A stretch of DNA of 32,247 nucleotides from a virus. The stretch is taken from the IMG/VR virus record IMGVR_UViG_3300022750_000001, positions 64,001 through 96,247 of that record; one strand, given 5' to 3'. Position numbers and translations under genes: made by a program. This document shows positions 14,353-16,350 of the stretch, in pieces. Positions within the stretch are counted from its first letter, which is position 1; the number at the start of each line of letters is the position of its first letter. The notes under the pieces are model-generated. The model ran no database searches and was not told the DNA's origin. It saw nothing but the letters and a program-made list of their open reading frames with translations.

Positions 14353-14873
14353 CGGTATTAGTATTAGATATATGTTTTACCCTAAGAACATAGTGAGTAT
14401 TAATAGCCGCTCTCTATTACTACCAATATCACTATATTCTATCTAAGGGTTAGGATAGTATTACTATGTCACTGATTATTCAATGAGATTGCAGAGTAAT
14501 GAGATTATCCAAAGATTAGTGGGGGTTTTGAGGGAAGGGAGCGTGAGTACTATAATTAAGCATCGGTATTACTCCATTTCTTAGGAGACAATACTCAATA
14601 CTTAATAACTCCTAAGTAACCAATAAGTAACTTCTATGGGGGTCACACAAGGTCTCAACTTAACCTCAATTACCCTACCACCATAGTATCAAATTATAAA
14701 ACTGACAAACTCAACAAAGAAAAGAAGCAAAAGAAATCTTCTTTATTCAAGAAAAAAATACAAATTATATTTAGATTATTTATATAAGTATTTAATAAGT
14801 ATAGGGAAATGACATTCCCATGACAAAAGTAGGCTAAGTGTAGCAAATTGCTCTCCTACCTAATAATATAATG
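14353..14873. other. About 520-nt non-coding region with box copy A and an A-rich tract
   Basis: No minus or plus frame of more than about 15 codons with a credible start was found. Contents: an 8-bp inverted repeat CTTAGGAG/CTCCTAAG (about 14580-14616), the G5T4 box at 14509-14530, an A-rich tract at 14,700-14,760 and the hairpin GGGAA/TTCCC near 14,805. The 11-mer CATCGGTATTA occurs twice (14350 and 14561). Confidence 0.6.
14509..14530 (-). promoter_or_regulatory. G5T4 box, copy A
   Basis: On the plus strand it reads CCAAAGATTAGTGGGGG then TTTTG. No TAAATA follows at the 18-nt distance seen for copies B and C, so it may be an operator-like half or use another -7. It points toward the 52-aa gene and the left operon. 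Confidence 0.5.
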
Positions 14874-14906
14874 TAATACCACTAGACATGTAGCCTAGTG
14901 GTATTA
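14868..14906 (-). terminator. Terminator of the 131-aa gene
   Basis: The perfect 12-bp stem TAATACCACTAG / CTAGTGGTATTA has a 9-nt loop and lies 5 nt after the stop. The minus continuation CATTATATTATT is only moderately T-rich. Confidence 0.65.
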
Positions 14907-14910
14907 AGGA

Positions 14911-15306
14911 TTAGTTTACTGGTGCTGCAACAACTGGTTGTGCTACTGGTAATACTTGTGCTTGAACTGCATTAACTGGTTGAACTGCTAATGCTGCAAC
15001 TCTTGCTGCTTCGGCTTCTTTAGCTATTTGGTCTTGAGATTTCAACTCCAACCATTTACACATGATAGTGTCACCATGATTCTCTGAACTTGGGTCATCA
15101 ATAGTGTATGGTCTATCAATGGTATTAAACATCTCCAAAGGTAAATCACCTTTAGTACCTACAGGCACTTGGTCTTTAGTCTTCATGTAATAGGTAATTT
15201 GACTATCCTTATTGCCAAAGACTGTAGCCATAGATGTTTTGCTCTGTAACTTGTTAATGAAGCCGCCATTAACTGATGAAGTTGATTTAATTAATTCTAA
15301 TAACAT
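14911..15306 (-). CDS. 131-aa protein with Ala/Pro/Gln tail, single-gene unit
   Basis: The N-terminal domain (about 1-85) is beta-rich: ELIKSTSSVNGGFINKL, ATVFGNKDSQITYYMKTKDQ, then GDTIMCKWLEL. The C-terminal 45 residues are low-complexity Ala/Pro/Val/Gln (AVQPVNAVQAQVLPVAQPVV). The compact beta domain plus flexible tail recalls single-strand DNA-binding proteins, but I see no diagnostic residues. It has its own box-type promoter (copy B, TTG-18-TAAATA-9-ATG) and its own terminator. It is likely expressed strongly as a monocistronic unit. Confidence 0.7.
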   Translation of the reverse strand: MLLELIKSTSSVNGGFINKLQSKTSMATVFGNKDSQITYYMKTKDQVPVGTKGDLPLEMFNTIDRPYTIDDPSSENHGDTIMCKWLELKSQDQIAKEAEAARVAALAVQPVNAVQAQVLPVAQPVVAAPVN

Positions 15307-15315
15307 AATAATAGG

Positions 15316-15360
15316 TATTTAGGGTTATGGCACTATTGCCAAGAATTAGTGGGGGTTTTG
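15316..15360 (-). promoter_or_regulatory. Box copy B and promoter of the 131-aa gene
   Basis: The 22-bp box (15339-15360) reads CCAAGAATTAGTGGGGG then TTTTG on the plus strand. On the minus strand its TTG (15342-15340) is followed 18 nt later by TAAATA (15321-15316) and 9 nt later by the ATG. This resembles the Bacteroidota TTG / TAnnTTTG promoter, though the -7 match is partial. The spacing is identical to copy C. Confidence 0.65.
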
Positions 15361-15378
15361 ATTGTAATGGTTATGCAA

Positions 15379-15405
15379 CAAATAAGGACAAGCCGAAGCC
15401 TGTCC
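15379..15405 (-). terminator. UUCG-loop terminator of the 99-aa lipoprotein gene
   Basis: The minus-strand stem GGACAGGC-TTCG-GCTTGTCC (8 bp with one G-U) is followed by TTATTTG. It lies a few nt after the stop. UUCG is an unusually stable tetraloop. Confidence 0.75.
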
Positions 15406-15411
15406 CTTATG

Positions 15412-15711
15412 TTATAAGTCATTGTCAGTATCAGGGTCAATAGCTAGTTGTTTTATAACTATAGCCTTGATGGTATTAGTACTGTCAAATGAGTTATCAA
15501 TTCTTTGGTTGATTTTGCTGATGAACACACTGTCACCAACTAAGTATTGGAAACTATCTAATACTTTAGGTTCAATGTTGGTAGTCATCATTGTGGTATT
15601 GTCAATAGTCAATACTTTGTAGTATACTAAGTTAGTTTTAGACTTAGTAGAACAAGATGATAATAGTGCAATGAATGCAACAATAGCGATAATAAGGTGT
15701 AATCTTTTCAT
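15412..15711 (-). CDS. Lipoprotein, 99 aa, single-gene unit
   Basis: The signal sequence MKRLHLIIAIVAFIALLSSC carries the lipobox LSSC, with the lipidated Cys at residue 20. The mature domain (about 80 residues) is Thr/Asp/Ile-rich with beta character (VYYKVLTIDNTTMMTTNIEP). It is the first left-arm gene beside the divergence region. It is preceded by box copy C and ended by a UUCG terminator. First position and membrane anchoring suit an early superinfection-exclusion or host-envelope protein, which is inference. Confidence 0.75.
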   Translation of the reverse strand: MKRLHLIIAIVAFIALLSSCSTKSKTNLVYYKVLTIDNTTMMTTNIEPKVLDSFQYLVGDSVFISKINQRIDNSFDSTNTIKAIVIKQLAIDPDTDNDL

Positions 15712-15720
15712 GATAAGGGT

Positions 15721-15765
15721 TATTTAGGGTTTAGTGGATTATTCCAAGCATTTGTGGGGGTTTTG
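15721..15765 (-). promoter_or_regulatory. Box copy C and promoter of the 99-aa lipoprotein gene
   Basis: The 22-bp box (15744-15765) reads CCAAGCATTTGTGGGGG then TTTTG on plus. On the minus strand TTG is followed 18 nt later by TAAATA (15726-15721) and 9 nt later by the ATG at 15711. This is the same geometry as copy B. AACCCTAAATA is also shared between the two. Confidence 0.65.
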
Positions 15766-15771
15766 GTATTA

Positions 15772-15824
15772 GTGTAGCCTATACCTAGAGGGCCTTCGTC
15801 TCTAGGTATGGGGTTAGGCTACAC
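15772..15824. repeat. Double 10-bp stem-loop
   Basis: The outer stem is GTGTAGCCTA (15772-15781) with TAGGCTACAC (15815-15824). The inner stem is ATACCTAGAG (15781-15790) with CTCTAGGTAT (15800-15809), sharing one base at the junction. No T-tract follows on either strand, so a structural or processing role is more likely than termination. Confidence 0.55.
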
Positions 15825-15860
15825 ATCCATAGGCTGTTTATTCCCTATATCACCTATGGG

Positions 15861-15897
15861 ATGCGGTATTAGCATGATATAACATGCGGTATTAGCA
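15861..15897. repeat. Two 14-bp direct repeats flanking an inverted repeat
   Basis: ATGCGGTATTAGCA occurs at 15861-15874 and 15884-15897, a 23-bp period close to two helical turns. Between and across them lies GCATG-atataa-CATGC. The arrangement resembles iterons. Confidence 0.55.
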
Positions 15898-15913
15898 AGT
15901 ATCAAATGATACA

Positions 15914-15968
15914 ATGATAGATAGTAGAACTGTTGAGTGACACTGTGTGATGGATGATGATAGATAGT
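15914..15968. repeat. 12-bp direct repeat pair
   Basis: ATGATAGATAGT occurs at 15914-15925 and 15957-15968, with a 43-bp period (about four helical turns). Confidence 0.5.
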
Positions 15969-16019
15969 CTATACATAGTAGCTTATGCTATGCTAACCAT
16001 GTTGTTGTGAAGCACCACC

Positions 16020-16031
16020 TGACCTAGGTCA
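16020..16031. repeat. Perfect 12-bp palindrome
   Basis: TGACCTAGGTCA is fully self-complementary, as expected of a dimeric repressor or initiator site. It is enclosed by CATGTT/AACATG. Confidence 0.5.
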
Positions 16032-16117
16032 TTAAGGTAACATGATTGAATAGATTATCTATATATTCCTGCCGAGAAAAACTTGAATGTGATTACAAGG
16101 GTGGGGGAGTTCGAAAT

Positions 16118-16139
16118 CCAAAAATTGGTGGGGGGTTTG
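16118..16139 (-). promoter_or_regulatory. G5T4 box, copy D (no gene downstream)
   Basis: On plus it reads CCAAAAATTGGTGGGGGG then TTTG. It points left into about 350 nt of repeat-rich DNA without a gene. No TAAATA lies at the 18-nt distance. Confidence 0.4.
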
Positions 16140-16239
16140 AATGGAGGACACTCACTAACCCATAAACTTCCCACCAAAATAATTTTCCCAAAAAATTTTT
16201 TATCACTTCCATAATACCTACCTTTACCCTGTTCCCCAT

Positions 16240-16350
16240 CATGACTTAACTCAGTTGGGAAAGGCTTATCTTATACTACACCTATACTATAAGCACGTGA
16301 GAGTTTCACCTATCAGTAGGTAGTCCTAGGTTCGAATCCTAGAGGAAGAT
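16240..16350 (+). ncRNA. tRNA-like structured element
   Basis: The 3' part has a perfect T-arm: stem CTAGG/CCTAG around TTCGAAT (16326-16342). The 5' part has TA then ACTCAGTTGGGAAAGG (16247-16264), which reads like U8-A9 and a D-arm with AGTTGGGA. Between them are stems GCTTAT/ATAAGC (16264-16294), GTGA/TCAC and ACCTA/TAGGT. I could not find a consistent acceptor stem or a 7-nt anticodon loop, so a normal tRNA is not supported. It may be a decayed or insertion-split tRNA or a tRNA-mimic RNA. A terminator follows directly. Confidence 0.4.

Follow-up and report, generated by a model that had tools for sequence, protein, structure and literature searches.

A contiguous box before early-arm genes in one lineage of crAss-like phages, a probable promoter of the virion RNA polymerase

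Described early promoters and the phage considered here

Few phages of the human gut are as abundant as the crAss-like phages, whose giant RNA polymerase is very unlike other enzymes. The bacterial phylum presumed to contain the host of the phage considered here, the Bacteroidota, has promoters for its primary sigma factor with the elements TTTG at -33 and TAnnTTTG at -7. The virion RNA polymerase of the Thermus phage P23-45 initiates at a short motif that precedes the first genes; the motif is kept in relatives that have the polymerase and absent from those without it (PMC10770324). Closer at hand is phi14:2, in which the virion polymerase transcribes the early genes; the early genes of crAss001 lie at the equivalent end of the genome (PMC8375218, PMC10136315).

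The DNA examined in this study is a window of 32,247 nt, positions 64001 to 96247 of a viral contig of 96,247 bases. The contig is that of a crAss-like phage, its TerL, portal and major capsid protein matching PHROGs families of those functions. TerL shares about 48-49% identity with its counterpart in cultured phages of Flavobacterium psychrophilum in the genus Fipvunavirus (FpV4 and Fpv20), and its kinship to gut crAss-like phages is more distant. Replication genes occupy the minus strand and structural genes the plus strand, and at the switch between the strands lie the copies of a repeated box that is the subject of this report.

The box resembles the P23-45 motif in being short, contiguous and placed before the starts of the first genes, in a phage with a giant virion polymerase of the two-barrel DxDxD type; it differs in that the P23-45 motif is AT-rich, while the box has an invariant ACCC/CAC core and starts that are predicted only. 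Phi14:2 shares with the present phage its crAss-like nature, the genome plan, the polymerase motif (DFDxDK) and an early arm by the strand switch, but the box is absent from its early strand. Promoters of T3 and T7 likewise consist of a single block adjoining the start, and the T3 core, AACCCTCACTAA, matches the box, but the predicted start here lies 4 nt further downstream and no gene for a T7-type polymerase was found. Bacteroidota sigma promoters find their likeness in the TTG and TA-rich words of two copies in the window, but elements at -33 and -7 are not conserved among 61 copies.

The box and its predicted start

The initial annotation of the window had noticed two copies of the box, B (15339-15361) and C (15744-15766), both of which contain AACCCTAAATA. 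There are two more, A (14509-14531) and D (16118-16140), so placed that all four (at 14509, 15339, 15744 and 16118 when the box is read on the plus strand) have the same orientation and lie no further than 1.6 kb from the divergence of the early and late arms. The whole contig holds the same four copies and no others. With up to three mismatches allowed, the expectation is 0.66 matches where four were found, a number that was not attained in any of 100 shuffled sequences. A blind search for repeated 20-mers ranked the box at the top in all four genomes tested, above shuffles in each (in the present phage, a score of 79.0 as compared to 44.2 for the shuffle).

On the strand of the early genes, the consensus of 57 non-redundant copies is C(-27)...TTCAAnACCCYCACTnATTTTT-[G/A]G, one contiguous block with conservation from -28 to +2 and none beyond +2. 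The purine that follows the block often has G next to it. Positions -12, -11, -8 and -7 of the box are variable. To avoid circularity, the model was rebuilt on positions -22 to -5 only, with +1 excluded, and a purine nonetheless stands at +1 in 59 of the 61 non-redundant copies, as against 3 to 75% at neighboring positions. At a threshold above 13 bits, this model finds 73 copies in the sense orientation and none in the antisense, over about 530 kb in 16 sequence sets. The proposal in the initial annotation of a promoter-type element upstream of early-arm genes gains from this polarity, and from a search of the full genome and of related phages, the very search it had recommended, in which the box recurs in the early arm only.

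A purine held at a constant distance from the core, after a T-rich stretch, looks like a transcription start, and by that token the starts are predicted at 14510, 15340, 15745 and 16119. Since the conserved core comprises the box up to the fixed purine, the starts of B and C move to 15340 and 15745, upstream of where they had been placed before. The corresponding putative promoters, from -28 to +2 on the minus strand, are copy A at 14509-14538 (29.2 bits by the position weight matrix), copy B at 15339-15368 (26.9 bits; sense strand attacaatcaaaacccccactaattctt followed by GG), copy C at 15744-15773 (18.8 bits; actaataccaaaacccccacaaatgctt followed by GG) and copy D, the one nearest the divergence point, at 16118-16147 (24.0 bits).

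Two features adjoin the box. A small stem that begins exactly at +1 is seen in many leaders (GGCAATAGTGCC, GACGA..TCGTC) and has the appearance of covariation. A hairpin promoter like that of N4 was considered and set aside, the excess of stems over shuffles being marginal (15 against 9.0, sd 2.7), and I do not rely on it. Also, the divergence-proximal copy has, 26-28 nt downstream, a further C-rich core that can often be recognized as a second box; this is so in about 10 of 14 genomes (D18, G001, G002, G004, G005, G010, G013, G019, L007 and the present window at 16098-16147). In the window it is degenerate (CGAACTCCCCCACCCT, 16098-16113 on the minus strand, downstream of D, with a spacing of 27 nt between C-runs). 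The second core may mark either tandem promoters or a regulatory site.

Units headed by the box, here and in relatives

The early-arm genes B (14911-15306; 131 aa) and C (15412-15711; 99 aa), both on the minus strand and both without a match in PHROGs, form single-gene units as described in the initial annotation, and past each comes a stem-loop that ends in a T-rich tail. The terminator-like hairpin of unit B, at 14874-14906 on the minus strand, has a 14-bp stem (-20.5 kcal/mol, z -6.7), and that of unit C, at 15384-15407 on the same strand, has a UUCG loop on a 10-bp stem (-15.6 kcal/mol, z -3.8). The product of gene C has an N-terminus like that of a signal peptide or lipoprotein (MKRLHLIIAIVAFIALLSSC). 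Copy A heads the long early/replication arm, in which the first ORF (52 aa) comes 158 nt downstream. Past copy D, about 350 nt following the predicted start at 16119 are without an appreciable ORF, and this unit (15772-16119, minus strand) is possibly a non-coding early RNA; an Rfam scan of the region gave no match. The D transcript may have its 3' end at a long hairpin (15772-15824, minus strand; -27.7 kcal/mol, z -5.2), without a T tract, that lies between the unit and promoter C. In the box region, neither Rfam nor tRNA scans gave a match. Beyond D, at 16325-16342, is a sequence like the T-arm of a tRNA (CCTAGGTTCGAATCCTAG), perhaps a degenerate tRNA, where ARAGORN and Rfam call none.

The predicted leaders of B (15307-15340) and C (15712-15745), both on the minus strand, contain TAAATA at 15316-15321 and 15721-15726, respectively. 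Rereading of the sequence confirmed the identical geometry that had been reported for the two copies on the minus strand, TTG followed by 18 nt, TAAATA, 9 nt and ATG. The identity comes about by coincidence, both predicted leaders being 34 nt in length, and the spacing does not hold in relatives. The initial annotation had taken TTG and TAAATA to be the promoter core, resembling those of Bacteroidota, and the box to be accessory, a view I have had to abandon: of 61 copies, 15 have TTG at that position, and the place of TAAATA is set by the start codon rather than by the predicted start of transcription. TAAA[AT] lies mostly 13-17 nt before ATG, but anywhere from +9 to +51 relative to the predicted start. 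TAAATA precedes 32% of box-led genes, compared to 5.5% of other ORFs, a comparison set that includes spurious ORFs. Bacteroidota do without Shine-Dalgarno sequences, and Flavobacterium johnsoniae is A-rich at -14 to -11 (PMC6847099). Given this preference for A and the anchoring of TAAA[AT] to ATG, a role of TAAATA as context for translation initiation would fit better than one as promoter element.

Relatives carry 2-9 copies of the box in the same place and on the same strand. FpV4 has five, all intergenic, with the predicted start purines at about 83,692, 87,790, 88,307, 258 and 375 of its record on the minus strand, and the box is present too in relatives from IMG/VR. A search of viral contigs for the exact 22-bp box of the window found no match, because the flanking CCAA is not conserved; once CCAA was relaxed, the family came to light. 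Scanning IMG/VR by the box alone, with no protein information, yielded four new contigs with at least two copies (G013, G017, G018 and G019), and all four encode the capsid protein of the present phage, at 61-63% identity. The capsid protein is absent from contigs with a single match, some of which are fragments.

G002 has a succession of small units, headed by nine copies that lie within about 3.4 kb (concatenated coordinates 55.4-58.7 kb), and the region has nine terminator-like hairpins where 1.5 are expected, several of them directly upstream of the next box. In G017, copies extend across about 16 kb of the early arm, and one lies 21 nt before a helicase-like gene of 423 aa, so the box may serve replication genes too. 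Two families of orthologues are led by the box in different phages, one of 82-89 aa (five phages) and one of 136-148 aa (four phages). For the 131-aa protein of unit B, neither tblastn in phages nor peptide patterns in viral contigs produced a homologue. Homologues were found only by comparison among box-led genes: two genes of G010 (the better at E 1e-13), both of them preceded by the box. Absence of the box from the same genes in close relatives, which would have spoken against the element, was thus not what was seen.

Outside this group the box disappears. It was not found in relatives whose TerL is 41-47% identical, nor in the early regions of crAss001 and p-crAssphage; G009 has one weak match, and the early arm of phi14:2 has none, its one match lying on the strand opposite to the early genes. 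Present in relatives and absent from more distant crAss-like phages, the box marks one lineage. A simple repeat search of the early regions of p-crAssphage, crAss001 and phi14:2 revealed no counterpart of the box, and in phi14:2 no outstanding repeated motif. Repeats of other kinds occur in distant phages. The early region of p-crAssphage (BK010471; L099/L098) contains CTCATTATCAACATTAAATA three times exactly and TATAACCTCTAGTTATATCA three times nearly so, in the early arm, possible elements of an early promoter or an origin. The crAss001 early arm (L095) has four related copies of GTATAATAGACTTACTTCAA near tRNA-like sequences. In a distant relative, G008 (L100), GGTGATGGTTATGGTGATGG is repeated in tandem within the early arm, some 16 kb from the beginning of the fragment.

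Copies from one genome resemble one another more closely than copies from different genomes do (3.3 versus 4.8 mismatches in 19 positions; 0 of 2000 permutations), while for their downstream flanks the difference is slight (13.4 versus 14.0 of 20). This likeness fits a phage-encoded reader that drifts along with its sites. Comparison of the genomes shows the element, its strand and place, the start-like purine, the lineage specificity and the presence of the box at homologous genes.

Which polymerase reads the box

On the evidence as a whole, the box is very probably a promoter. The early genes of many phages use the polymerase of their host, and the box might be an early promoter of that kind, recognized through an alternative sigma factor or through an activator, from host or phage, that binds the box. 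I consider this unlikely. Window copies B and C do show TTG and TAAATA at a distance of 18 nt, but across the family there are no -10 and -33 elements conserved at a fixed distance, TTG occurring in 15 of 61 copies and TAAATA being anchored to ATG, and conservation reaches to -4 and +1, beyond what a separate activator site would reach. A host sigma factor or activator should have sites in host genomes. The 84,980 bacterial and archaeal genomes searched contain 54 single matches in scattered taxa, against an estimated 60 or so by chance (2 x 257 Gb / 8.6e9), and a host factor, including the host activator proposed earlier, is accordingly disfavored. An operator for a phage regulator, serving for example the autoregulation of early genes, would be repeated as the box is, and the tandem second core at 26-28 nt by the divergence-proximal copy suits it, but with strict polarity (73 to 0), a fixed purine and no other conserved promoter element for it to regulate, that reading is improbable.

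The clustering of copies at the strand switch might also suggest a signal at the level of DNA, for recombination or packaging or as an iteron of a replication origin. Units are headed by most of the copies, however, with purine and strand fixed, and those of G017 are scattered along some 16 kb of early arm, one of them before the helicase-like gene, so that a DNA signal is very improbable. Least probable is the promoter of a single-subunit polymerase of the T7 type. Some copies (e.g., in G002) are identical over 12 nt to the T3 consensus, the box sharing AACCCTCACTAA with the T3 promoter, but in the T3 register +1 would be T, and PF00940 is absent from the present genome and eight relatives (nine genomes), in a search where the T7 control scored E=1e-109. 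A promoter of the T3/T7 type was rejected on these two grounds.

The reader that fits best, and is likely the right one on circumstantial grounds, is the phage's own virion RNA polymerase of the crAss type, an instance of the phage polymerase that the initial annotation had named among its candidates. A 4207-aa ORF (genome coordinates 24947-37570) carries KGLDFDVDK, the crAss-type DxDxD motif, evidence at the level of the motif only; aligned to it are KGLDYDIDK in FpV4 and MGQDFDVDK in G002. Its DFDVD resembles the DFDID of GSDFDIDK in gp077 of phi14:2, a protein of 2180 aa, the size of the solved polymerase. By sequence, the 4207-aa ORF matched no solved structure, unsurprising at such divergence.

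Against a virion-polymerase promoter stand copy D, which has no recognizable ORF after it, and copy A, which lies 158 nt before its first small ORF. Nor is the box common to phages with a characterized crAss polymerase: it is missing from the early arms of phi14:2, crAss001 and p-crAssphage, and phi14:2 belongs to the very group for which there are data on the virion polymerase. Such sharing would not strictly be required if promoter and polymerase co-evolve.

The reading I favor, and hold to be probably correct, is that the box is a lineage-specific early promoter of crAss-like phages (Fipvunavirus and relatives) read by the virion polymerase. The polymerase, injected with the DNA, would read the boxes and so switch on the first genes. 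The core of the promoter would be the contiguous box, the transcript would begin at the fixed purine, and the units transcribed, short and mostly of a single gene, would lie close before the divergence point and in many cases have a hairpin terminator of their own. That these units are expressed early I infer by analogy with crAss001 and phi14:2.

A literature search found no paper naming a promoter sequence for the virion polymerase of a crAss-like phage; the primary paper on phi14:2 lay outside its scope and may contain a motif. On balance, I lean slightly towards the box being a promoter, and the first to be described, of a crAss-type virion RNA polymerase, a sigma-free two-barrel enzyme; the element it recognizes would be contiguous and 30 bp long, and between lineages its sequence would drift along with the polymerase. 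If that reading is true, it gives a poorly understood virion polymerase a concrete target that can be tested, and as cultured Flavobacterium phages carry the 30-bp candidate, for which the start nucleotide is predicted, the question comes within reach of experiments in vitro and of 5'-end mapping. For this lineage of crAss-like phages, the box would serve besides as a marker for early genes, most of them of unknown function.
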